A stretch of DNA of 64,000 nt, taken from positions 558,001-622,000 of the forward strand of contig NZ_CP033878.1 in the NCBI RefSeq assembly GCF_009690625.1, read 5' to 3'. Both the position numbers and the translations under genes were made by a program. The stretch comes from Halorhabdus sp. CBA1104 (GTDB taxonomy: Archaea > Halobacteriota > Halobacteria > Halobacteriales > Haloarculaceae). Shown here in pieces: positions 7,374 to 40,619 of this stretch (the stretch's first letter is position 1; every line of letters begins with the position of its first letter). The notes under the pieces were generated by a model. That model did no database searches and was not told the origin of the DNA. It saw nothing but the letters and a program-made list of their open reading frames with translations.

Positions 7374-7573
7374 CCGTCCAGTAAGCCGAGTTCGTCGGCG
7401 ACGAGGTCTGCAAGCTGATCGGCTACGTCGGGATCGACCTCGGCAACCGGCTCGCCGTCGTGCATCCGCTCGTTGTGTTGCTCGAGCCGATCCGCCAGGT
7501 CAGACAGCGAGATCTCGGCAGTGGTCTCACACTCCTCGCAGACGATCGGGACGTCGGGCTCGTCGTCAGTCAT
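7370..7573 (-). CDS. Small C2H2 zinc-finger-like protein
   Basis: 67-residue acidic protein with a single candidate zinc site: a CEEC pair at the N-terminus followed about 17 residues later by HNERMH (His-x4-His). The rest is acidic and helical (DVADQLADLVADELGLLD). Small one-finger proteins like this are common in haloarchaea, but I cannot name a function. The ATG at 7573 lies about 27 nt from a TATA-like CGTTTTGTC on the minus strand, favouring it over an upstream start that would add 36 cysteine-containing but non-acidic residues. It is convergent with nadC and overlaps its stop codon. Confidence 0.65.
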   Translation of the reverse strand: MTDDEPDVPIVCEECETTAEISLSDLADRLEQHNERMHDGEPVAEVDPDVADQLADLVADELGLLDG

Positions 7574-7821
7574 TGCCAGTGAGTTTGACGGCCAGTGACA
7601 AAACGTCCCCGAATCGACGATTCCCGCTCGGGAGCGAACACACAGCAACATGGCCCGGAAGCTATGACAGGGCGGCACCACGAGAGTCAGCCAGAGGGGT
7701 TCGAATGCGACGGTTTGTGGCAGATTTCGTCAAATGTATCTAACCAGCGTCAGTGCGGGTCTTACCGGCGTCTCAACCCCCAACTGGACTGGATGCGTCC
7801 GACTCTTTAGAGCAGATTTAG

Positions 7822-8745
7822 ATGTCTTCCAGCGAGTCCCACGTCGATCCGGGTCAGTTTCTCAAACAGCTCCGGGCCTTCCAATACCGCGAGGTAACGA
7901 TGGCGCTGGCGACGCTATCGGTGATTGCCGGTTCGATCGTCTTCTTCCCCGGTTTCGGGGAGATGACCAGCGGCCTCCAATCGGATGTCTCGGCGACGAT
8001 CTTGGTTGTCTTCGTCGGCGTCGCGATCCTGGCCGGCGCGATCAAGGGCATGATCGGCTTCGGGTACGCACTGGTCGCGACCCCAATCTTCGCTACCGTT
8101 ATCGACCCGACGCTGGCAGTGGTCGTCCTCGCGATCCCGCCCTGGATGCTCAACATGTTCCAGGTCGGCGAAACCGACACTGGAATGGCTTTTATCCGTG
8201 AGGAATGGCTGTTGCTCGTCCTGGCGATCGCTGGCGCGGTCGTCGGCGTTGCCGTCCTCGATGCGGTCGAGACCGGCCCGCTGGTGCCGTTCCTGATCGG
8301 CCTCGTCGTCTTCGGATACGTCCTCTTCCAGCTCGGACAGGGCTTCGTGACCGTCGAGAAAGCCCACCACCCCGTGGCAATGAGTATCGCCGGTGCACTG
8401 GAAGGGTTCCTGCTTGCAATTGCGAACCTCGGGCCGCTCCTGCCCGCCTACTTCCACACCTTCGAGCGCGATACCGAGCGCTACATCGGTGGCCTCTCGA
8501 TGGTCCTGGGCGCGATCTTCACGGTCAGGATCGTCCAGATGGCGCTGTTCACCGACCTCATGACGCCCTACCGGCTGTGGCTGGGCTCGGTCATCGCTGT
8601 CGTGACGCTGGTGGGGCTGTTCATCGGGACCTACCTCCGGCGGCTGGAGATCGACGAGCGGCGGTTCAACTGGTTCGTGGTCGCGCTCCTCTTTGTGATA
8701 TCGCTGAACATCTTCCGGCAGACGATTCCGGCGCTGTTTCTGTAG
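7822..8745 (+). CDS. TauE/SafE-family membrane permease
   Basis: 307-residue polytopic membrane protein of the TauE/SafE family, which is linked to export or uptake of sulfonates, sulfite and related anions. About eight hydrophobic segments are visible, with the family-like glycine-rich repeats GAIKGMIGFGYALVATPIFA in the first half and GALEGFLLAIANLGPLLP in the second, reflecting the internal duplication of this family. The N-terminal 30 residues are polar and cytosolic-looking. It stands alone after the nad genes, so the substrate is not indicated by context. The ATG at 7822 is the first with a sensible N-terminus. Confidence 0.82.
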   Translation: MSSSESHVDPGQFLKQLRAFQYREVTMALATLSVIAGSIVFFPGFGEMTSGLQSDVSATILVVFVGVAILAGAIKGMIGFGYALVATPIFATVIDPTLAVVVLAIPPWMLNMFQVGETDTGMAFIREEWLLLVLAIAGAVVGVAVLDAVETGPLVPFLIGLVVFGYVLFQLGQGFVTVEKAHHPVAMSIAGALEGFLLAIANLGPLLPAYFHTFERDTERYIGGLSMVLGAIFTVRIVQMALFTDLMTPYRLWLGSVIAVVTLVGLFIGTYLRRLEIDERRFNWFVVALLFVISLNIFRQTIPALFL

Positions 8746-29961: not shown

Positions 29962-30318
29962 ATTGATACGTGAGTGAGCCCAAAGTTAATGCTGGCGTCG
30001 GCAACTGGGAGTGTCTCTCTACGGAGCGACCTGGTAGTCTTGGCCGGACGAACAGCTCTGTCGACATGTGATACGCCCCCTCATTCGACCCGTAGAACGA
30101 TCTCTGAGGGCTGTCGGCGGGTGTGTGCTTCGTGGTCCGTAACCGCCGCGTCAGCTTCTCAGCTCCCTCGATACCGGCACCCAGCAGCACGCCCGACACC
30201 GTTCGGTCTGTTCCTACGTAGGTATTATCACAATCATTCGGGAATTGACACAAGCCAAACCCTTTTGGTCGGTCCGTTCGTCCGTTCTGTACGGCACCAT
30301 CTGGGCCGATGATATTCA
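29962..30318. other. Intergenic region between histidine kinase and korA
   Basis: A 357-base stretch between divergent genes. At its left end lies the kinase promoter (minus-strand ATTAAC at 29985-29990). At its right is the korA upstream region with a CCAAA/TTTGG inverted repeat. In between I see no protein, tRNA or stable RNA signal, although an open frame crosses it on the minus strand with non-haloarchaeal composition. Confidence 0.6.
30255..30268. promoter_or_regulatory. CCAAA-4-TTTGG inverted repeat upstream of korA
   Basis: Perfect 5-bp arms with a CCCT spacer, about 50 nt ahead of the korA ATG. The TTTTGG part resembles the T-rich TATA-like boxes used elsewhere in this window, so it may be the korA promoter, an operator (perhaps for the downstream Lrp protein) or both. 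Confidence 0.3.
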
Positions 30319-32217
30319 ATGACAGCACACGAACTCATCTGGCGAATCGCTGGCGGTTCCGGTGACGGAATCGACTCGACGAGCCAGAACTTCGCGAAAG
30401 CCCTGATGCGGGCAGGGCTGAACGTTTTCACCCATCGACACTATCCGTCCCGTATTCGTGGCGGCCACACGTACGTCGAAGTACGAGCCAAAGACGAGGA
30501 AGTCACCTCCCGGGGCGACGGGTACAACTTCCTGCTATCGCTCGGCGATAGTTTCGCTCGCAACCCTTCCGAGGATGCCTATTATGGCAACGAGGAACTG
30601 AAGCCACTCGCGGAGAACTTGGACGAACTCCGTGAGGGCGGTATCATCGTCTACGACACAGGATTGTTCGACGAGGACGAGGTTGCGGAACTGAATCTCG
30701 AAGAGCGTGCCGAGGAGAACGACTGGCACGTCTATCCGGTCAACCTTCGGGAACTCGCACGGGAACACGGCCGAGACGTCATGCGCAACACCGCTGGTGT
30801 CGGCGTCACGGCCGCGCTGCTCGACATGGACGTGTCGTTCTTCGAGGAACTGATCCGCCAGAACATGTCTGGCGACATCCAAGAAGACAATCTGAACGTC
30901 CTCGAAGACGCCTACGAGCGCGCCGAGGAGTTCGAGCACACTCACGATCTGACTGTTCCGACCGGCGAGAACGAACAGGAACTGGGCCTGATGAACGGCT
31001 CGAACGCCATCGCATACGGCGCTCTGGACGCCGGCTGTCGGTTCATCGCCGGCTACCCCATGACCCCGTGGACGGAAGTGTTCACGATCATGTCCCAGCA
31101 CATGTCCGAGTTCGGTGGCATCGCCGAACAGGTCGAAGACGAGATCGCCGCCGCGGCCCTGGCACTGGGTGCGAGCCACACCGGGGTCAAGGCGATGTCG
31201 GGCTCTTCGGGTGGCGGATTCGCCCTGATGTCCGAACCGCTCGGTCTCGCCGAGATGACCGAGACGCCGATCGTCCTCGTCGAAGCCATGCGGGCTGGTC
31301 CCTCGACGGGCATGCCGACCAAGCCCGAGCAGGGCGACCTCGAACACGTTCTGTATACGAGCCAGGGCGACTCCAACCGTGTCGTCTTTGCTCCCGCTGG
31401 AATCAAGGAAGCCTACGAGCAGACCCGACTGGCCTTCGAGATCGCCTACGACTACCAGATCCCGGCGATCGTCGTCTACGACCAGAAGATCGAGGGCGAA
31501 CTCCGGTCGGTCCCGATCGACTTCTTCGACCGGGAGCCGGATCCGGACGTTGGAGAGGTCCTCTCCGAGGAAGAGATCAAGGAGGCTGCCCACCACGAAT
31601 CGGGCACCTTCAAACGCTTCGACTCCGAGGTCGAAGGCGGCGTCAGCCCGCGGACGGTCCCCGGCCAGGAAGGTGGCCGCCATCTCACGTCCGGGAACGA
31701 GACCAACGCGTACGGTCACATCGAGGAAGATCCGGACAACCGAGTCGCACAGATGGCCCGCCGGATGGGCAAACTCGACAGCATTCGTGAGGAACTCGAC
31801 GAGAAAGACGCCTCCAATCAGGCCACTCGTGGCCCGGACGACGCCAACTACGGGATCATCACGTGGGGCAGCCAGCAAGGTACGGTCTTCGAGGCCGTCG
31901 ACCGCCTGAACGAGAACGGCCAGGCAGTCAAGGCCCTCGGCGTCAGCGACCTGATGCCCTATCCCGAAACCGAGGTTACCGAGTTCCTCGAAAGCGTCGA
32001 GGAAGCTGTCGTCGTCGAGATGAACGCCAGTGGCCAGTTCAAGGGACTCACCCAGAAGGAACTCGGTCGCTTCGGCGACAAACTGTCGAGCCTCTTGAAG
32101 TACAACGGGAACCCCTTCGAACCCGCCGAGATCGTCGAGGGCTTCGAAGCGATCGTCGAGAACGAGCCGGAGGTCCCGGGGGATTCGACTACGTTCGTCC
32201 CAGCGGCAGGTGACTAA
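30319..32217 (+). CDS. korA: 2-oxoacid:ferredoxin oxidoreductase, alpha subunit (KorA type)
   Basis: Alpha subunit of a CoA-dependent 2-oxoacid:ferredoxin oxidoreductase, most likely the 2-oxoglutarate enzyme of the haloarchaeal citric acid cycle, which replaces the dehydrogenase complex. The 632-residue protein is a fusion of a gamma-like domain (residues 1-190, starting IWRIAGGSGDGIDSTSQNFA) and the pyrimidine-binding alpha domain (about 215-630, with NAIAYGALDAGCRFIAGYP and MSGSSGGGFALM). The C-terminal part, VIEM-like VVVEMNASGQFKGL, is typical. korB begins three bases after the stop, so they form one operon. Pyruvate as substrate cannot be excluded from sequence alone. Confidence 0.9.
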   Translation: MTAHELIWRIAGGSGDGIDSTSQNFAKALMRAGLNVFTHRHYPSRIRGGHTYVEVRAKDEEVTSRGDGYNFLLSLGDSFARNPSEDAYYGNEELKPLAENLDELREGGIIVYDTGLFDEDEVAELNLEERAEENDWHVYPVNLRELAREHGRDVMRNTAGVGVTAALLDMDVSFFEELIRQNMSGDIQEDNLNVLEDAYERAEEFEHTHDLTVPTGENEQELGLMNGSNAIAYGALDAGCRFIAGYPMTPWTEVFTIMSQHMSEFGGIAEQVEDEIAAAALALGASHTGVKAMSGSSGGGFALMSEPLGLAEMTETPIVLVEAMRAGPSTGMPTKPEQGDLEHVLYTSQGDSNRVVFAPAGIKEAYEQTRLAFEIAYDYQIPAIVVYDQKIEGELRSVPIDFFDREPDPDVGEVLSEEEIKEAAHHESGTFKRFDSEVEGGVSPRTVPGQEGGRHLTSGNETNAYGHIEEDPDNRVAQMARRMGKLDSIREELDEKDASNQATRGPDDANYGIITWGSQQGTVFEAVDRLNENGQAVKALGVSDLMPYPETEVTEFLESVEEAVVVEMNASGQFKGLTQKELGRFGDKLSSLLKYNGNPFEPAEIVEGFEAIVENEPEVPGDSTTFVPAAGD

Positions 32218-32219
32218 TC

Positions 32220-33155
32220 ATGAGTGCATTCAGCGCAATCGACCAGGATCGCGAGATTGACCCAGAAGAATATACACCCGGCATCGAACCGCAGGCGACC
32301 TGGTGTCCGGGCTGTGGTGACTTCAGCGTCCTCAAGGCGCTGAAGCAGGCGATGCCGGAAGTCGGCCGGACGCCCGAAGAAGTGCTGACGGTGACCGGTA
32401 TCGGCTGTTCGAGCAAACTCAACTCCTACTTCGAGTCCTATGGCTTTCACTCGATTCACGGCCGGTCGCTGCCGATCGCCCGTGCAGCGAAACTCGCCAA
32501 CCCGGCACTCGAAGTGGTTGCCGCCGGCGGTGACGGTGACGGCTACGGCATCGGTGGGAACCACTTCATCCACACGGCCCGTGAGAACCACGATATGACC
32601 TATATCGTGTTCAACAACGAGATCTTCGGGCTGACGAAAGGCCAGACGTCCCCGACCAGCCCCAAGGGCCACAAGTCAAAGACCCAGCCCCACGGCTCGG
32701 CGAAAGATCCGATCCGACCGCTGAGTTTGGGGCTGACCGCGGGTGCCTCTTATGTCGCCCGCACCGCCGCCACCAACCCGAACCAGGCGGCAGAAATCTT
32801 GGCGGAAGCCATCGAACACGACGGGTTCGCTCACGTCGACTTCCTGACCCAGTGTCCGACCTGGAACAAGGACGCCAAATCGTACGTCCCGTATACGGAC
32901 GTCCAGCAGTCCGACGACTACGACTTCGACTACACTGATCGGGAAGAAGCGGCCCAGATGATGTACGAAGTCGAATCGAAACTCTACGAGGGCGAGGTCC
33001 TCACCGGTCGGTTCTACGTCGACGAGGACCGGCCGTCCTACACCGAGGAGAAGCAGGCTACCGGTGAGATGCCCGAGGAACCCCTGGCAGAGAAGTACTT
33101 CGACGACGACGCCGAGTGGAAGCGCAGCTACGACCTGCTGGAACACCACACGTAA
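32220..33155 (+). CDS. korB: 2-oxoacid:ferredoxin oxidoreductase, beta subunit (KorB type)
   Basis: Beta subunit carrying thiamine diphosphate and a [4Fe-4S] cluster, partner of KorA. The 311-residue protein shows the cluster Cys motif TWCPGCGDF near the N-terminus, a further Cys in GIGCSSKL and another in FLTQCPTWNKDAKS. The thiamine-magnesium motif is AAGGDGDGYGIGGNH, ending in the usual VFNNEIFGLTKGQTSPTS. The acidic C-terminal 60 residues resemble other haloarchaeal KorB proteins. It directly follows korA. A stem-loop lies 35 bases after the stop. Confidence 0.92.
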   Translation: MSAFSAIDQDREIDPEEYTPGIEPQATWCPGCGDFSVLKALKQAMPEVGRTPEEVLTVTGIGCSSKLNSYFESYGFHSIHGRSLPIARAAKLANPALEVVAAGGDGDGYGIGGNHFIHTARENHDMTYIVFNNEIFGLTKGQTSPTSPKGHKSKTQPHGSAKDPIRPLSLGLTAGASYVARTAATNPNQAAEILAEAIEHDGFAHVDFLTQCPTWNKDAKSYVPYTDVQQSDDYDFDYTDREEAAQMMYEVESKLYEGEVLTGRFYVDEDRPSYTEEKQATGEMPEEPLAEKYFDDDAEWKRSYDLLEHHT

Positions 33156-33189
33156 TCGCCGCGGCCCGTCTCGTGTGATGGGACGCGTT

Positions 33190-33208
33190 GCCGGCTGAAA
33201 AAGCCGGC
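33190..33208 (+). terminator. Stem-loop after korB
   Basis: A perfect 7-bp stem (GCCGGCT/AGCCGGC) with a GAAAA loop, 35 bases beyond the korB stop and ahead of the lrp promoter. It may end or attenuate the korAB transcript. No long T-run follows, so its role is uncertain. Confidence 0.4.
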
Positions 33209-33224
33209 CAGCCCTTTCACGTTC

Positions 33225-33239
33225 GGAAGATATTTTTCC
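33225..33239 (+). promoter_or_regulatory. Promoter and imperfect dyad of the lrp gene
   Basis: GGAAGATATTTTTCC is a partial palindrome (five of seven pairs) that contains the TATA-like ATATTT centred 28 nt before the ATG at 33261. Overlap of a dyad with the TATA box would suit autorepression by the Lrp protein encoded just downstream. Confidence 0.4.
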
Positions 33240-33260
33240 ACGTATCACAAAATCAGGTTC

Positions 33261-33689
33261 ATGAGCGCCGAAGCGACGGCCGAGCGTATCCTGGACGTCT
33301 TAGAGGACGACGCCCAGGCCTCCTACGCCGAGATTGCAGACCGGGTAGGTGTCTCGAAGCCGACTGTCAGGAAGTACATTCAACAACTCGAAGACGATGG
33401 CGTCATCGTCGGGTATTCGGCAGACGTCGATCCCAAGAAACTCCCGAGTGAAAGTATTGCTATCGTCGGCGTGGACGTCGAGAGTGAGGCCTACGTCGAA
33501 GTATCCCGCGCGCTACAGGATGTCTCGGCGATCGAAGCGTTGTACACATCCAGTGGCGACCACACGCTGATGGCCGAGGTCCGTGCGACCGACGGCGACG
33601 CGCTTGGCGACGTCATCAACGACCAGATCGAGGCCCACGAGGGGGTTGCAGCCGTTCATCCGTCGTTTCTTCAAGAACGACTGAAGTGA
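33261..33689 (+). CDS. Lrp/AsnC-family transcriptional regulator
   Basis: 142-residue regulator with an N-terminal HTH (residues 5-50, AEIADRVGVSKPTVRKYIQQLE and GVIVGYSADVDP) and a C-terminal RAM ligand-binding domain (from about 62, IVGVDVESEAYVEV to VHPSFLQER). Lrp proteins sense amino acids and act as dimers or octamers on nearby genes. The gene follows korAB on the same strand, separated by a stem-loop and its own promoter, and is a plausible regulator of korAB. The next gene begins 64 bases later behind its own T-rich box. Confidence 0.9.
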   Translation: MSAEATAERILDVLEDDAQASYAEIADRVGVSKPTVRKYIQQLEDDGVIVGYSADVDPKKLPSESIAIVGVDVESEAYVEVSRALQDVSAIEALYTSSGDHTLMAEVRATDGDALGDVINDQIEAHEGVAAVHPSFLQERLK

Positions 33690-33753
33690 TCGTCCGGCGC
33701 GTGCCGGAGCCAGGAGGGAGGTTTTTAGGGGCTGTAGATCCCACGGTCGGGAC

Positions 33754-35316
33754 ATGCGCACCCGGCTGGTGGTGGGCTGTGGGAGACTCGGGGCGACGCT
33801 GATCGACACCCTGAGTGACCGTCCGGGCCGGGTCGTGGTCGTCGTCCCCGGCGAGCGCGCAACAGCGCTCCGCGAACGATTTCCGTCCGTCGACGTGACG
33901 GTTGAGGACCCGACAGAGCCTGGCGTCTTCGAAACGCTCCCCGACGCAGACAGCGTCCTCGTTGCCGGGGACGACCCCGCACGGAACCTCGAAACGGCCG
34001 AACTCGCACGCGACGCTTTCCCAGCGGCGTTTCTTCTGGCGTACGCCGGTCTGGAACCACCGGCCGACATTCGTCAGTCGTTGGCCAATCTGGCCGACCG
34101 TCTCGTCGACCCTCCCGCTGTCTTCGAGACGTTTCTGACCGAACGCGTCGAGACCGGCGAGACGACGATGCACGAGCTGCGCAAAGTGGTGGCCGATATT
34201 GACGGTCCGCTGGCTGTCGTGATGCACGACAATCCCGATCCCGATGCGATCGCCAGCGCCGTCGCATTACGGCGTCTCATCGAGTATTTCGGCTGTTCGG
34301 CACAGGCCTGTTACTACGGGTCGATCAACCATCAGGAGAATCGGGCGATGGTCAACCTCCTCGAATACGAGCTTCGGAACCTCGATGCCGAGTCGGACCT
34401 CACCGAATTCGGTGGCTTCGCCTTGGTCGATCACGCCCGACCCGGTGTCAACGATGGCCTGCCCGAGGACACGCCCGTCGATATCGTGATCGACCACCAT
34501 CCGCCACGTGGGCCAGTCAGCGCTCGGTTCGCGGATCTCCGAAGCGATGCCGGCGCGACGAGTACGCTACTGGTCGATTACTACCGCCGACTCGGGGTCG
34601 ATATCGAGCCGGCTGTCGCAACCGGCCTCTTGTTCGGCATCCGTGTCGACACCGACGAGTTCAGTCGGGAAGTCTCGGTCGCGGACTTCGAGGCCGGTGC
34701 TGAACTCCTGGCGAACGCCGATCTGGGCAGGTTGGAACGCGTCGAGAATCCAAGCGTCAGTTCCGACACCGTAGAGACCATCGCTGCAGCGATCAGGCGT
34801 CGACAACGCCACGGCTCGGTCCTGTTGAGTGGCGTGGGGGCGATCAACGACCGCGATACGCTGGCACAGGCCGCTGATCGGCTCCTCAATCTCGAAGAGA
34901 TCACGACGACCCTCGTGTATGGAATCATCGACGGGACGGTCTACATCTCGGCGCGCTCTCGTGGAACCGATCTCGACCTCGGTGAGACGCTGCGGGCTGC
35001 GTTCGGACAGATCGGGAGTGCCGGCGGCCATGCGGAGATGGCGGGGGCACAGATCGAACTGGGGGTACTGGAATCGATCGACGGTGACGACCCTTCTCTC
35101 GTGGATATCGTCGACGAGCTGGTTGCCGATCAGTTTCTGGACGTATTGGATTTACATCCTTCGCGGGCGTCCCTGGGGACCTACGGGCAAAGCGACGAAT
35201 CAGCAGTCGACGTGCCCGAAAGTGACAGCTGGGTCACCGGTGGGTCCGAACCGGATCGCCGTGAGTCCAACGTAGGCGAGTGGCGTGTTCGAGACACCCA
35301 ACCGGATGAGGAATAG
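33754..35316 (+). CDS. TrkA-N/DHH-DHHA1 phosphoesterase
   Basis: 520-residue protein with three parts. Residues 1-110 are a Rossmann-like TrkA-N/RCK domain (TRLVVGCGRLGATLID). The DHH phosphoesterase domain follows, with metal-binding MHDNPDPDAIASA from His158, VDHARP and the DHH motif at 247-249 in VIDHHPP. A DHHA1 domain near 360-465 ends in GSAGGHAEMAGAQI. This is the architecture of RecJ-like and cyclic-dinucleotide phosphodiesterases; the RCK-type head suggests control by NAD(H) or a nucleotide. c-di-AMP or pApA hydrolysis is a reasonable guess, not shown. GTTTTTAGG at 33721-33729 gives a leaderless start. Confidence 0.85.
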   Translation: MRTRLVVGCGRLGATLIDTLSDRPGRVVVVVPGERATALRERFPSVDVTVEDPTEPGVFETLPDADSVLVAGDDPARNLETAELARDAFPAAFLLAYAGLEPPADIRQSLANLADRLVDPPAVFETFLTERVETGETTMHELRKVVADIDGPLAVVMHDNPDPDAIASAVALRRLIEYFGCSAQACYYGSINHQENRAMVNLLEYELRNLDAESDLTEFGGFALVDHARPGVNDGLPEDTPVDIVIDHHPPRGPVSARFADLRSDAGATSTLLVDYYRRLGVDIEPAVATGLLFGIRVDTDEFSREVSVADFEAGAELLANADLGRLERVENPSVSSDTVETIAAAIRRRQRHGSVLLSGVGAINDRDTLAQAADRLLNLEEITTTLVYGIIDGTVYISARSRGTDLDLGETLRAAFGQIGSAGGHAEMAGAQIELGVLESIDGDDPSLVDIVDELVADQFLDVLDLHPSRASLGTYGQSDESAVDVPESDSWVTGGSEPDRRESNVGEWRVRDTQPDEE

Positions 35317-35379
35317 CCACTGTCGGTCCCGCGGGCGCTGGCGAGGGATTTTTCAACCGAGACACCATCAGTGACGACG

Positions 35380-36180
35380 ATGGCCAGTGCTGATACTTCG
35401 TCGACTGTCGAGGAATACATGACCCACGAGGTCGCGACAGTCGCCCCGGACGAGACGGTAGGTGAGGTCGCACGACGGATCGCCGAGAGTGGCGATCACA
35501 GCGGATTTCCGGTTTGTACCGGACGAGAAGTGCAGGGATTTGTGAGCGCAAGCGATCTCCTCCTCGCTGATGAGTCGGTGACGATCGAGACGGTGATGTC
35601 GACCGATCTGATGGTCGGCCACCCCGAGATGGATGTCGACGACGCGGCCCGCGTCATTCTGCGATCGGGCATCCAGCGTCTGCCAGTCGTCGACGACGAC
35701 GGAGACTTGGTTGGCATCATCACGAATACTGACGTCCTTCGCAGCCAGATCGAGCGAGCGACCCCCGAGAAGGTCGACGAGCTCCGAGAGACGATCGAGG
35801 ACGTCCACGACGCCGAAACCGGCCAGGAACGTCGCGTCGTCTCACTATCTACCCTCAAGCCGACCCAGACGAAAGTCTACGGGGACGAACTCGAAGGCCG
35901 TATGTACGAAATCGAGCGGGGCTTGGCTGAACCGCTCGTGGTTATCGACAACGCCGGTGAGCTGTTGTTGGCCGACGGCCACCACCGGACCACCGCTGCT
36001 GTCGAACTCGGAACCGAAGAAATGGACGCCTACGTCATCACCATCGACGAACCAGTCGACTTAGAGATGGCCAAGACGGCCGAGGACGAAGACATGACTT
36101 CGATCGAAGACATCACGATCGTCGACTACGCCCGTCACCCACTCGTCGAGCAGACCGAACGGTACCAGGACGACGAGTGA
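35380..36180 (+). CDS. CBS-pair protein with ParB-like/SerK-like domain
   Basis: 266-residue fusion. Two CBS motifs occupy residues 1-135 (VEEYMTHEVATVAPDETV ... IQRLPVVDDDGDLVGIITNTDVL), which usually bind adenosine nucleotides. From about 155 a ParB/sulfiredoxin-fold domain follows (SLSTLKPTQTKVY, EPLVVIDNAGELLLADGHHRTTAAVELG) with the DGHHR signature also present in archaeal free-serine kinases of the SerK type. It could therefore be a nucleotide-sensing serine kinase or a regulator. The start at 35380 is set by ATTTTTCAA about 27 nt upstream. It lies between the DHH protein and acs on the same strand. Confidence 0.78.
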   Translation: MASADTSSTVEEYMTHEVATVAPDETVGEVARRIAESGDHSGFPVCTGREVQGFVSASDLLLADESVTIETVMSTDLMVGHPEMDVDDAARVILRSGIQRLPVVDDDGDLVGIITNTDVLRSQIERATPEKVDELRETIEDVHDAETGQERRVVSLSTLKPTQTKVYGDELEGRMYEIERGLAEPLVVIDNAGELLLADGHHRTTAAVELGTEEMDAYVITIDEPVDLEMAKTAEDEDMTSIEDITIVDYARHPLVEQTERYQDDE

Positions 36181-36350
36181 CTGTCTTCGCGCGTCTGATC
36201 CACCGCGAGTTGGCTCTGCCCTGACGGTCTCCGATTCGTGGCGGTTTCGCGTCGCCCGATACCTGCGGGTACGATCCTGATACCAGGGAATGTCGCCGCT
36301 TTGCTGACGCTCATGTAGCTGAGTGTGCAGGTCACTGTCGTGAGTTACTA

Positions 36351-38363
36351 ATGAATGATAATGATGGAGTGGGGCTGGAAGCACGGTTGTCGGATCGGAA
36401 CTATCATCGGCCGCCGCCACGGTTCGTCGGCCAGGCAAATGCCAGCGATCCAGCGATCTACGATCGTGTCGGGGACTTTCCCGACGGATTCGAGGCATAC
36501 GCCGACTTGCTAACGTGGGAGACACGGTGGGACGAGACTTTCGACGGAAGTGATCCGCCGTTCTTCGAGTGGTTTGTCGGGGGCTCACTCAACGCGTCGG
36601 TAAACTGCGTCGATCGACACCTTGCCGACCGGAAGAACCAGGCTGCACTCATCTGGGAGGGTGAAGACGGTGAGCAACGGACCGTGACGTACCAGGACCT
36701 CCACCGCCGGGTCAACGAGGTTGCAGCGACCCTCCGTGAAGTCGGTGTGTCCGAAGACGACGTTGTGACGCTTCACCTCCCGATGGTGCCAGCCTTGCCG
36801 ATCACGATGCTCGCGTGTGCCCGGATCGGGGCCGTCCACTCGGTGGTGTTTGCCGGCTTCTCGGCGAACGCCCTGGCCGACCGGCTGGCCGACGCCGACA
36901 GCGATGTACTTGTGACGATCGATGGCTATTATCGCCGCGGAGAGTGGCTCGATCACAAGGACAAAGCCGATCAGGCCCTCGCTGATTCGGCTACCGACGT
37001 CGAAACGGCTCTGCTGTGGTCCCGCCACGACGATCTCGAAGCGGGGGTCGAACTCGCGGGCGAAGATCCGTACGTCCTCGTCGACGACGTTCTCGCCGAG
37101 AAAGCGGGTGCCGACGTTCAGCCGGTCGCCCGCGATGCCGAAGATCCGCTGTTCCTGATGTATACGTCGGGGACGACGGGCAAGCCCAAAGGCTGCCAGC
37201 ACCGGACTGGTGGGTACCTTGCCTACGCTGCGGGCACCTCGAAGTACGTGCTGGATATCAAGCCGACGGATACCTACTGGTGTGGTGCAGACATCGGCTG
37301 GATCACCGGCCACTCGTATATCGTGTATGGCCCGCTGGCACTCGGTACGACCAGCCTCATGTACGAAGGTGCCCCGGATTTCCCCGACCGATCGCGAACC
37401 TGGGAGATTGCCGAACGCTACGACGTCGACATTTTCCATACGTCACCGACGGCGATCAGGCAGTTCATGAAGTGGGGCAGCGACCACCTCGCGGGACACG
37501 ACTTCGACTTTCGCCATCTCACGACCGTCGGTGAACCGATCCAGCCCGAAGCCTGGGAGTGGTACTACGAGCACGTCGGCGACGCCGAGGCGGTTGTCGT
37601 CGATACCTGGTGGCAAACCGAGACTGGCGGCCACCTGATCACGAATCTCCCGGCGCTTGCCGACATGAAGCCAGGCAGCGCGGGCCGCCCGTGCCCGGGG
37701 ATCCAGCCCGCCCTTTACGAGGACGATGGGACACACATCGAACCCGAGAGTGGCCGGGCCGGCAATCTGGTGATCGAACGGCCCTGGCCGGGCATGCTCC
37801 AGACGGTCTATGGCGACGACGAGCGATTCATCGCCGAGTACTGGCAGCGCTTTTCGGACACTGAGAGTGACGACTGGCGCGAGTGGGTCTACGAGACCGG
37901 CGACGGTGCAGTCCACGGCCAGGATGGGTACTACCGCATTCTCGGCCGACTCGATGACGTGATGAACGTTGCCGGTCACCGCCTCGGGACGATGGAACTG
38001 GAAAGTGCCGTCACGGAAGTCCAAGCCGTTGCCGAGGCCGCTGTCGTCGCTCGTGAGGATACCGAGCGCGGCCACGTGCCGGACGTTTATGTCGTCCTTC
38101 GGGACGGCGACGAGGCCGGTGCGGACGTCCGCAAGCAGGTCGTCGCGGCCGTCGAAGACCAGATCGGTGCCTTCGCCCGCCCCGATCGTGTGTTGTTCGT
38201 CTCTGATCTGCCGAAAACCCGCTCGGGGAAGATCATGCGACGAGTTTTGGAGAACATCTCAAACAGCGAGGACCTCGGCGACACGACGACGCTGCGGGAC
38301 CCAACGGTCCCCGAGCAGATCCGGAAACAGGTCCAAACGGGCGGCCAACCGCCGCGAACCTAG
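36351..38363 (+). CDS. acs: Acetyl-CoA synthetase (AMP-forming)
   Basis: Activates acetate to acetyl-CoA with ATP to AMP and pyrophosphate, allowing growth on acetate. The 670-residue protein is full length. Visible motifs are the N-terminal PPPRFVGQANASDPAIYD region, the ATP loop LMYTSGTTGKPKGCQH, DTWWQTETGGHL near residue 420, YETGDGA and GRLDDVMNVAGHR, and the C-terminal LPKTRSGKIMRR with the lysine that is acetylated in bacterial enzymes. No TATA-like box is seen at the usual spacing, so a longer leader is probable. A propionate preference cannot be excluded. Confidence 0.93.
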   Translation: MNDNDGVGLEARLSDRNYHRPPPRFVGQANASDPAIYDRVGDFPDGFEAYADLLTWETRWDETFDGSDPPFFEWFVGGSLNASVNCVDRHLADRKNQAALIWEGEDGEQRTVTYQDLHRRVNEVAATLREVGVSEDDVVTLHLPMVPALPITMLACARIGAVHSVVFAGFSANALADRLADADSDVLVTIDGYYRRGEWLDHKDKADQALADSATDVETALLWSRHDDLEAGVELAGEDPYVLVDDVLAEKAGADVQPVARDAEDPLFLMYTSGTTGKPKGCQHRTGGYLAYAAGTSKYVLDIKPTDTYWCGADIGWITGHSYIVYGPLALGTTSLMYEGAPDFPDRSRTWEIAERYDVDIFHTSPTAIRQFMKWGSDHLAGHDFDFRHLTTVGEPIQPEAWEWYYEHVGDAEAVVVDTWWQTETGGHLITNLPALADMKPGSAGRPCPGIQPALYEDDGTHIEPESGRAGNLVIERPWPGMLQTVYGDDERFIAEYWQRFSDTESDDWREWVYETGDGAVHGQDGYYRILGRLDDVMNVAGHRLGTMELESAVTEVQAVAEAAVVAREDTERGHVPDVYVVLRDGDEAGADVRKQVVAAVEDQIGAFARPDRVLFVSDLPKTRSGKIMRRVLENISNSEDLGDTTTLRDPTVPEQIRKQVQTGGQPPRT

Positions 38364-38382
38364 AGCCGACTGCTGGGCTGGA

Positions 38383-38661
38383 CTACTCGCTTCCGGGCTC
38401 GTGCGTGTCGAACCGTGCGGCGACGTACGCGACGGCACCCAACAGGACACCGAGAGCAAGGGCAACTGTACTCATTCCGTACGCGGCCATGCCCAGCGGG
38501 GAGGCCGGGAGTGACACCACGCCAAACAGTACCGGATCGACGATATCCGGTCGTGTGGCTCCGAGGATCGCCCCCATCAGTCCGGCGATAGCGATGACCA
38601 CGAGATAGATGGCGATAACGACTCGGCGGCCCCTGTTGACAGTCCTAATTGACACAGCCAC
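38383..38661 (-). CDS. Small two-helix membrane protein
   Basis: 92-residue protein with two hydrophobic segments, about residues 12-34 and 55-82, joined by a short polar loop containing Asp-Ile-Val-Asp. The N-terminus is basic (RTVNRGRRVV) and the C-terminus acidic, so both ends are likely cytosolic. I do not recognise a family with certainty. It lies 161 bases downstream of coxA on the same strand and may be an accessory subunit or assembly factor of that oxidase, which is inference from position. Confidence 0.6.
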   Translation of the reverse strand: MAVSIRTVNRGRRVVIAIYLVVIAIAGLMGAILGATRPDIVDPVLFGVVSLPASPLGMAAYGMSTVALALGVLLGAVAYVAARFDTHEPGSE

Positions 38662-38822: not shown

Positions 38823-40619
38823 TTACTCGTCGGTTTCGCGGCGCGGCGGGTCGTCGGTTGCTGTGGGCTGTTGGCCGCCATCAGTAACGGCCTGTTGTTG
38901 GCCGCCGTCGGCTGCAGTGAGCCGGTCGGCGTGCCAGCCGAACTCACGGGTGTACAGCCCGGACTGCTTGAGATCCCACGGGTCGGCGTCGGTCACCTTC
39001 GGGGCGTCGAGCCACGAGGAGACGACGTTCCAGACGAAGATCAGTTGCCCGATCAGGAGGATGACCGCGCCGACGGTCGCGGCTTGGTGGAGCAGTGTTT
39101 GGGCCTCGAGTGGGCCGACCGTGACCATATCGTAGCTCGCGTATCGGCGCGGCATCTGCATGTACCCGAGCAACAGCATCGCGAAGAAGGTCACGTTGGT
39201 GCCGATCATCGACAGCCAGAAGTGCCACTTCGCCAAGGTCCGCTGGTACATCTTCCCCGTGAAGATGGGGAACCAGTAGTAGATGCCCGCGAACACCGCG
39301 AAGGCGATCGCCCCCATGACGATGTAGTGGAAGTGCCCGACGACGTAGTAGGTGTCGTGGAGAACGAGATTGACCGGAATGGCAGCCAGGAAGACACCGG
39401 TCACGCCACCGATGATGAAATTCGAGATGAATCCGATCGAGAACAGCATCGGTGCCGCCAGTCTAATTCGGCCGTTCCACATCGTCGTGATCCAGTTGAA
39501 CGTCTTCACGGCGCTGGGTATCGCAATGGCGAGTGACACTGCCATGAACGAGGCTCGCAGGCGTGGATCGATCCCGGTCGAGAACATGTGGTGGGCCCAG
39601 ACGCCAAAGGAGAGCACCCCAATCGCCAGCGTCGAGTAGACGACGAACTTGAACCCGAACAGTTTCCGGCCGGCAAAGCGCGGAATGATGTAGCTGATCA
39701 GGCCCATCGGGGGGAGCACGAGGATGTACACTTCCGGATGGCCAAAGAACCAAAAGAGGTGTTGCCAGAGGATCGGGCCGCCACCTTCTCCGACCGCGTA
39801 GAACAGCGTCCCGAGGTTCCGATCGAGCAACAGCATGACGATGGCACTGCCAAGCAGCGGGAACGCGAAGAGGATCAGTCCCGACTGGGTGAGCATCGTC
39901 CAGGAGAAAATGTCGAGGTTGGCCCAGCTGACATCATCACCACGTTCGGTGAAGATTGTCACGATGAAGTTGATCGCCCCCATCGTCGCCGAGACGCCAG
40001 TCAGGTGCAACCCCAGAAGCATGAGGTCCGCGCCGACGTGGGCCTGTTCGACCGATAGCGGCGTGTACATCGTCCAGCTGGTCTGGGCGGGTGCGATCCC
40101 GGGGACGAGAAAGCCACCCCAGATGAGGAGCGCGCCGGGGGGCAACAACCAGAACGCGATGGCGTTGATCCGCGGGAAGGCCATGTCGTCGGCCCCGATC
40201 AACAACGGCACGAAGTAGTTCCCGAAGGCCGCGATGATCGGCGTACCGAACAAAAACAGCATCGTGATGCCGTGACTCGTCAGCAACGCGTTGTAGAACT
40301 GGGGACTAACCACGTCCGATGCTGGCGTGATCAGTTCGAACCGCATGACCATCACCATCAGTCCACCGATCGCCAGCGCGAGGAGTGCGAAGACGCCGTA
40401 GAGAATGCCGATGTCCTTGTGATCGACGGTCGTGAGCCACCTGGTCACACCCGAGGGCTTTTCGCGGTGGCCGTATCCGGTATCCTCGCCGACGGCGACG
40501 GCGCCGCCACCGGCCAGGGGCGTGTATCGCCGCCAATCCTCGATCCGCGTGAGGATCGCAGCGACCCCGACCAGGACGAGCCCCATCAGCACCGTCAACG
40601 CGAGCTGCTGTCCTGCCAT
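38823..40619 (-). CDS. coxA: Cytochrome c/quinol oxidase subunit I
   Basis: Catalytic heme-copper oxygen reductase subunit, pumping protons while reducing oxygen. The 598-residue protein has one extra N-terminal helix (residues 5-25) before the 12-helix core that starts with TTVDHKDIGILYG. Heme and CuB ligands are visible in LLTSHGITMLFLFGTP, GHPEVYILVLPPMG, WAHHMFSTGID and VGHFHYIVMGA. HPEVY with the K-channel Glu/Tyr region suggests the A-type family. Subunits II and III are not in the window. Two small membrane-protein genes precede it on the same strand. Confidence 0.93.
   Translation of the reverse strand: MAGQQLALTVLMGLVLVGVAAILTRIEDWRRYTPLAGGGAVAVGEDTGYGHREKPSGVTRWLTTVDHKDIGILYGVFALLALAIGGLMVMVMRFELITPASDVVSPQFYNALLTSHGITMLFLFGTPIIAAFGNYFVPLLIGADDMAFPRINAIAFWLLPPGALLIWGGFLVPGIAPAQTSWTMYTPLSVEQAHVGADLMLLGLHLTGVSATMGAINFIVTIFTERGDDVSWANLDIFSWTMLTQSGLILFAFPLLGSAIVMLLLDRNLGTLFYAVGEGGGPILWQHLFWFFGHPEVYILVLPPMGLISYIIPRFAGRKLFGFKFVVYSTLAIGVLSFGVWAHHMFSTGIDPRLRASFMAVSLAIAIPSAVKTFNWITTMWNGRIRLAAPMLFSIGFISNFIIGGVTGVFLAAIPVNLVLHDTYYVVGHFHYIVMGAIAFAVFAGIYYWFPIFTGKMYQRTLAKWHFWLSMIGTNVTFFAMLLLGYMQMPRRYASYDMVTVGPLEAQTLLHQAATVGAVILLIGQLIFVWNVVSSWLDAPKVTDADPWDLKQSGLYTREFGWHADRLTAADGGQQQAVTDGGQQPTATDDPPRRETDE

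Follow-up and report, generated by a model that had tools for sequence, protein, structure and literature searches.

Two adjacent genes on the forward strand of a 64-kb stretch of the Halorhabdus sp. CBA1104 genome (hereafter the window, to whose positions coordinates refer) encode a predicted TrkA_N-DHH-DHHA1 phosphoesterase of 520 amino acids (the DHH protein; 33754..35316, +) and a protein that combines a pair of CBS domains with a ParB-like domain (the CBS-ParB protein; 35380..36180, +). The best overall explanation, which we judge to have an even chance of being right, is that the former is a haloarchaeal phosphodiesterase for adenine (di)nucleotides and the latter its regulatory partner. 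Judged by sequence, the DHH protein of this pair is the best-placed candidate in the class Halobacteria for a phosphodiesterase of cyclic di-AMP (c-di-AMP) and/or pApA, a role that has already been proposed for its likely orthologue in Haloferax volcanii. The open-access literature that was searched yielded no description of the DHH/CBS-ParB pair or of its linkage to nuo genes; what is new within that literature is the pairing across the class, its nuo context, an active site lost from the other full-length paralogue, and the co-absence with the diadenylate cyclase.

Matches to both proteins were found in all 145 Halobacteria genomes searched, the DHH match in genome G021 being a different paralogue. 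Taking the best match per genome, the DHH gene is followed by the CBS-ParB gene on one strand, at most 1 kb away, in 114 of these genomes, so the pairing is beyond chance; the pair is old within Halobacteria. In 6 of the remaining genomes, a distance of 1.7 to 3.4 kb separates the two genes on one strand; in 2 they are close together but inverted, and in 23 they are far apart, on different contigs, or, as for G021, no DHH row is listed. Adjacency is nearly complete in the window's family (27/28 genomes) and was seen in 76 of the 80 named loci and 28 of the 30 other loci that were fetched. The named loci comprise the 80 top-ranking ones among 183 matches and are thus biased to near relatives; with near-identical rows present (e.g., L005 and L113), these counts do not represent independent events.

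In the DHH protein of the window, whose closest named relative is that of H. salina (84%), three domains exceed the Pfam cut-offs: TrkA_N, a Rossmann domain of the RCK-N type (residues 5-96; 33766..34041, +; PF02254, E 5.3e-9), DHH (residues 154-296; 34213..34641, +; PF01368, E 2e-9), and DHHA1 (residues 355-440; 34816..35073, +; PF02272, E 1.1e-11). The catalytic residues are H158, D162, D164, D226, D247, H248, H249, and D299, the last of which falls just past the end of the DHH domain (residue 296), and the GGH motif of DHHA1 is formed by G424, G425, and H426. All eight catalytic residues and GGH are intact in 110 of 110 pair DHH proteins, a set that excludes the window's own copy (L081). 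A PDB search with a profile built from 31 such proteins returned as its top match 9n0l, annotated as a c-di-AMP phosphodiesterase (E 1.2e-20, residues 134-443), followed by 5xsi, the catalytic domain of GdpP (E 8.7e-15); NrnA-type entries were matched only at an E of about 1e-5, and TrkA was also matched, ranking after family II pyrophosphatase. For the AlphaFold model (pLDDT 84.5, pTM 0.54, with low confidence beyond residue 468), TmPDE (Z 25.8, rmsd 3.6, 308 residues aligned) and GdpP (Z 25.6, rmsd 5.4, 312 aligned) tie as the best matches, with NrnA structures at Z 21-22. The likeness to c-di-AMP phosphodiesterases that had been proposed for this protein is thus borne out by both profile and fold.

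The DHH-DHHA1 core is shared with GdpP (5xsi) and 9n0l, whose HxxxDxD, VDH, DHH, DT, and GGH motifs align with those of the window protein, but the latter has an N-terminal TrkA_N domain and only about 23% identity to GdpP. The enzyme was not assigned to GdpP proper, in which transmembrane, PAS, and GGDEF regions stand ahead of DHH, as only TrkA_N precedes DHH here. Among TmPDE and the DhhP-type enzymes, TmPDE (TM1595; 5o25) is the top structural match, although only residues 137-471 of the window protein are covered, at 21% identity, and TrkA_N is extra. That domain matches the RCK proteins KtrA and MthK, together with 3llv, at Z 16.4-16.8; 3llv is an archaeal NAD(P)-binding domain labeled "exopolyphosphatase-related". 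Family II pyrophosphatases carry a C-terminal DHHA2 domain; membership in that family was rejected, since the window protein has DHHA1 and scores 47 bits with the pyrophosphatase NCBIfam model, against a cut-off of 283.

The window's genome contains four matches to the pair DHH protein, and a wider search adds weaker ones. In a midpoint-rooted tree of 34 rows, from which L134 and L140 were left out, the pair DHH proteins form a single clade (support 100/99) neighbored by a group of DHH proteins that lack TrkA_N (98/97), and a second full-length TrkA_N-DHH-DHHA1 paralogue, here called par2, clusters with methanogen proteins (98/97). The par2 gene is present in 79 of 79 genomes searched; that of the window's genome, with a degraded active site, is at G000:C1:1088362-1089840 (L148, L161), and further copies are L161-L210. 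Not one of 50 par2 proteins (a count that omits L126 and L139) has the full set of eight catalytic residues: 46 have lost the second His of the DHH motif, giving DHY, DHF, or DHN variants, the first Gly of GGH is retained in 3, and none of the 50 has Asp in motif IV, where Glu is found instead of it. Motif IV is likewise Glu in 3 of 8 methanogen proteins, and its change therefore means little by itself. From these motifs, par2 appears to be impaired or non-catalytic. A third DHH paralogue of the window's genome, which lacks TrkA_N (G000:C1:1912613-1913652; L139, L149), is covered by two overlapping matches in different frames and may be frameshifted or misread in the assembly.

A diadenylate cyclase (DAC) domain is encoded in 59 of 59 Halobacteria genomes, including that of the window, in agreement with the earlier statement that haloarchaea make c-di-AMP. 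The compound itself has been measured in H. volcanii, where it is reported to be essential, and the enzymes that degrade c-di-AMP or pApA in this organism were described as unknown in 2021 (PMC8646023). HVO_0756, HVO_0990, and HVO_1690 are listed as predicted c-di-AMP phosphodiesterase candidates, and nuoB is given as HVO_0979 (PMC8305020). When genes are counted from nuoB along a Haloferax nuo cluster (L060), the DHH gene comes out as 0990, behind nuoN (0988) and a DUF7522 gene (0989). The count leans on the order of nuoB and nuoCD, which we take to be the expected one, and by this counting, rather than by sequence, HVO_0990 is very probably the H. volcanii orthologue of the pair DHH protein. 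One of the three listed candidates can accordingly be ranked first by its intact active site and class-wide presence, and another paralogue is suggested to have lost its active site. A genetic neighbor and a respiratory-cluster context can be named for this candidate, which makes a long-missing haloarchaeal enzyme directly testable.

Across the phylum, where 246 genomes were surveyed, DAC and the DHH family (threshold E 1e-30) were each found in 222 genomes and absent from 24, and they tend to be missing together: both are present in 215 genomes and both absent in 17, while DHH alone is absent in 7 and DAC alone in another 7. The joint absences include all 8 genomes of family f26 and 6 of the 8 genomes of genus g70, the other 2 of which have both genes. 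In family f20, the DAC frames comprise 556 to 681 amino acids (G156, G204, G219, G243, G266, G285, G309, G317, and G345), as compared to about 270 to 300 in many others, which suggests a fused diadenylate cyclase.

Pfam detects two CBS domains in the CBS-ParB protein of the window (E 5e-27); the pair spans about residues 13-130 when numbered from the upstream GTG (35407..35760, +; PF00571, two stretches, E 4.6e-27). In CBS domains, the motif G-h-h-[ST]-x-x-D binds the ribose and phosphate of a nucleotide. Both domains fit the G-x-x-[ST]-x-x-D form of this motif, with GFVSASD (residues 56-62) and GIITNTD (115-121), in each of which the Gly and the Asp are conserved in at least 97% of 108 rows. 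Comparison of the CBS-ParB model, in which the listed CBS proteins nearly all span residues about 9-132 and are uninformative on the ParB part, matched the CBS pair to AMP- or ADP-binding CBS structures at Z 17-18.5. It resembles the AMP/ADP-bound AcuB and CBSX structures (29-38% identity) and the c-di-AMP-bound DarB (about 20%); the AcuB structures with AMP or ADP reach Z 17.8 at 37-38% identity. The retention of both motifs is consistent with the original prediction that the CBS pair may bind adenine nucleotides.

With the window sequence alone, the ParB-like part (35830..36144, +) stays below the cut-off of Pfam (ParBc_2, 0.003; DUF1015, 2.5e-4), and a profile of 17 homologues detects the ParB structures 4umk (E 9e-5) and 6sdk (E 0.0012). 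It contains GLAEP, which resembles box I and aligns with GLLQP of ParB, and DGHHR (35974-35988, +), which resembles the P motif and aligns with GERR, so that box I and the P motif (GxxR), the signature of the ParB-CTPase fold, are both present. Both elements are invariant or nearly so in the 17 homologues, methanogens included; GL-x-EP and DGHHR are kept in Halobacteria and methanogens alike. The signature is shared with the ParB of ParABS systems, but the window protein has CBS domains in place of the helix-turn-helix (HTH) and dimerization domains. Assignment as a ParABS ParB was rejected: Pfam found no HTH or C-terminal dimerization domain, and no ParA was present among the five neighboring genes tested. 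A SerK-like kinase was considered owing to DGHHR, and the match of SerK (5x0j), a free serine kinase whose catalytic residue is Glu30, to the profile was non-significant (E 0.12). The protein is of the same type as the archaeal CBS-ParB fusions, for which CBS is reported to be the commonest ParB-fold fusion in archaea, chiefly in Methanobacteriota and haloarchaea, and the P-motif arginine to be required for nucleoside triphosphate (NTP) binding (PMC12704722). A term search of the main text of that report found no mention of DHH or phosphodiesterase, leaving the DHH neighbor undescribed there. The CBS-ParB protein does not track the joint absence of the cyclase and DHH: it persists in the genomes of genus g70 that lack both, where c-di-AMP can therefore not be a ligand that it requires, and in family f12 a strong CBS-ParB match is missing although the members have both the cyclase and DHH. 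On the methanogen side, the CBS-ParB gene of L154, L155, L157, and L158 comes after a same-strand gene of one cluster, the one tested member of which is of the HSP20 type, and the gene next after CBS-ParB in L153 is phosphoribosyl-ATP pyrophosphohydrolase/MazG-like.

The usual surroundings of the pair differ from those in the window. With genes in the 80 named loci called by codon-position G+C, a conserved upstream run was found whose tested members are NuoH, NuoK, NuoL, NuoM, NuoN, and a 4Fe-4S protein; this is the complex-I-like nuo cluster. In 67 of the 80 loci NuoN precedes the DHH gene, with a gap of at most 150 bases in 35 of the 67. KorAB-LrpA1, the arrangement of the window, is upstream in 7 of the 80 named and 17 of the 30 other loci, and 6 of the 80 have neither NuoN nor Kor. 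Downstream, the methylmalonyl-CoA mutase large subunit is encoded in 32 of the 80 named loci (34 by clustering). Acs (at least 50% identity) occurs somewhere in the fetched stretch, with flanks of up to 8 kb, in 21 of the 80, but it immediately follows the CBS gene in just 2 of the 80 named and 2 of the 30 other loci; in the Halorhabdus-like genomes seen, it is beside the pair. A conserved kor-pair-acs unit was thus rejected: the pair itself is conserved across Halobacteria, and its Kor/Acs context is confined to few loci. In G017 and G052, nuoN still precedes the DHH gene although the CBS gene has moved away, and nuoN lies elsewhere in G000, G050, G041, G069, and four g13 genomes. The simplest view is therefore that the Kor/Acs context arose secondarily, by a rearrangement that carried the two genes there together. 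In 9 of the 80 named loci (including L043, L060, and L061), a gene of the opposite strand stands between nuoN and DHH, its tested cluster member being DUF7522; in L060 it is at 7531-7935 of the locus (-). In four genomes of genus g13 (L143-L146), nuoN, DHH, and CBS-ParB are at separate places, and in L143, L145, and L146, DHH is beside a gene of one cluster; the member tested encodes a Mur-ligase/pterin-binding fusion.

Haloarchaeal TATA boxes of leaderless transcripts are expected at about -26 to -31. With sequences aligned at predicted, rule-chosen starts, the A/T content peaks at -31 to -26 before both the DHH gene (0.76 versus a median of 0.38; 110 loci) and the CBS-ParB gene (0.71 versus 0.35; 107 loci). 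Since this conserved A/T box precedes both genes, each probably has a promoter of its own. The spacer between them, measured from the same type of starts, is 31-568 bases (median 55; 75 loci). In the window, the corresponding TATA-like boxes are TTTTTA (33722..33727, +; -32 to -27 from the DHH start) and ATTTTT (35348..35353, +; -32 to -27 from ATG 35380). The CBS-ParB frame extends from GTG 35371, and its start is probably ATG 35380, because the TATA-like box lies 27-32 bases upstream of it, as in the homologues.

In the mechanism suggested here, the DHH enzyme, predicted to be catalytically intact and metal-dependent, would cleave c-di-AMP and/or pApA, its presumed substrates, to AMP by a GdpP/TmPDE-like chemistry, with TrkA_N, the Rossmann domain, serving as a built-in sensor, and the CBS-ParB protein would most likely be a regulatory partner that binds adenine nucleotides and has a further NTP site within its ParB fold. 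The CBS-ParB protein might act on the DHH enzyme, and the nuo/kor neighborhood might reflect coupling to ferredoxin-linked energy metabolism; regulation of the enzyme by its neighbor, or control of carbon entry by the pair, is hypothetical. A number of observations weigh against the phosphodiesterase-and-partner explanation. The co-absence of DHH and DAC (Fisher p 1.4e-15) is uncorrected for ancestry and includes only about two clear co-losses, with some genomes being incomplete drafts; G166, complete on a single contig, has DHH without the cyclase, and G150 (97% complete) has DAC without DHH. G021 lacks the pair DHH protein and has instead a different, TrkA_N-less paralogue with intact DHHP and GGH. 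Outside Halobacteria, the CBS-ParB and DHH genes are far apart in the genomes compared (e.g., G195, G166, and G255). The family II pyrophosphatase 1wpn matches the DHH profile almost as well as GdpP does (E 1.7e-14), in the N-terminal half only. A strict operon is unsupported: a conserved promoter-like box at -27/-31 precedes both genes separately, and co-transcription is therefore not implied. Finally, the fold leaves the substrate unfixed, as pAp is the only compound cleaved by the pApase of Pyrococcus, which belongs to the DHH-DHHA1 proteins (PMC8268124).

The same enzyme gives weight to an alternative in which the DHH protein is an NrnA-like nanoRNase/pAp phosphatase that recycles short RNA and pAp, c-di-AMP is a non-physiological substrate, and the CBS-ParB protein is functionally unrelated. 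The fold is indeed shared with NrnA and the P. yayanosii pApase, at Z 21-22 and a profile E of about 1e-5 for NrnA, and the known archaeal DHH-DHHA1 enzyme is pAp-specific (PMC8268124). GdpP-type profiles are far stronger, however (1e-20 versus 1e-5), and co-absence with the diadenylate cyclase would be unexpected for a general RNA-recycling enzyme, which makes this alternative unlikely in our view. A more serious contender, falling a little short of an even chance, is that the pair is kept by the shared ancestry of the nuo neighborhood alone, as two housekeeping proteins with separate tasks and separate promoters. The conserved box that each gene has at -27/-31 fits this, as do the genomes of genus g13, in which the genes are split without loss (adjacent in 0/15, which also weighs against a functional pair), and those in which CBS-ParB lacks DHH and the cyclase (g70) or is located away from DHH (methanogens); it is less easily reconciled with the adjacency kept throughout most of the window's family (27/28 genomes) and with a pair that holds when its surroundings shift from nuo to kor-lrp. 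The notion, put forward in the original prediction, that the set ties energy state to carbon entry would make the CBS-ParB protein a local sensor of AMP/ADP for the adjoining Acs or KorAB. This would parallel AcuB, which in Bacillus is encoded beside acsA and whose AMP/ADP-bound structures rank with those most similar to the CBS pair, and Acs does adjoin the pair in the Halorhabdus-like genomes seen. It rests, however, on a lineage-local arrangement, because KorAB is upstream in 7/80 and Acs directly next in 2/80 named loci (17/30 and 2/30 of the others), and both proteins are near-universal in Halobacteria; we consider it very improbable, and that claim is not upheld.

The phosphodiesterase-and-partner explanation can be extended to a more specific scenario, which we regard as rather doubtful: in haloarchaea, one inherited TrkA_N-DHH copy lost its active site and may survive as a non-catalytic binder, while the paralogue at the nuo end kept or took over c-di-AMP/pApA hydrolysis, with the CBS-ParB protein as adenylate sensor, which would tie the turnover of the second messenger to redox stress and to ferredoxin/Nuo electron flow. 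Such a coupling is suggested because KorAB, which reduces ferredoxin, and Nuo, which may reoxidize it (PMC8305020), share one electron path, and because HVO_0990, reported with HVO_1690 among the proteins commonly raised under hypochlorite, rises under this treatment in one strain (PMC10294847).

As to the locus itself, both open reading frames were confirmed at the positions and on the strand originally given, as were their domains and the flanking KorAB and Acs genes. Upstream are KorA, the 2-oxoacid:ferredoxin oxidoreductase alpha subunit (30319..32217, +; TIGR03710, E 4e-186), and KorB, the beta subunit (32220..33155, +; TIGR02177, 280 bits, cut-off 262), both lineage-local neighbors. Overlooked in the original prediction, apart from the probable ATG start of the CBS-ParB gene, was the Lrp/AsnC-type regulator LrpA1 (33261..33689, +; NF041395, 254 bits, cut-off 250), which sits between KorB and the pair. 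Downstream is the AMP-forming acetyl-CoA synthetase Acs (36351..38363, +; TIGR02188, 791 bits), a direct neighbor in few loci. An Rfam search of 30000-38600 gave no structured RNA that reached the gathering score, and a PADLOC defense-system search at 0.001 gave no match for either protein of the pair. Just past Acs, the minus strand (38823-40619) carries what, judged by eye, is a cytochrome-oxidase subunit I-like gene.

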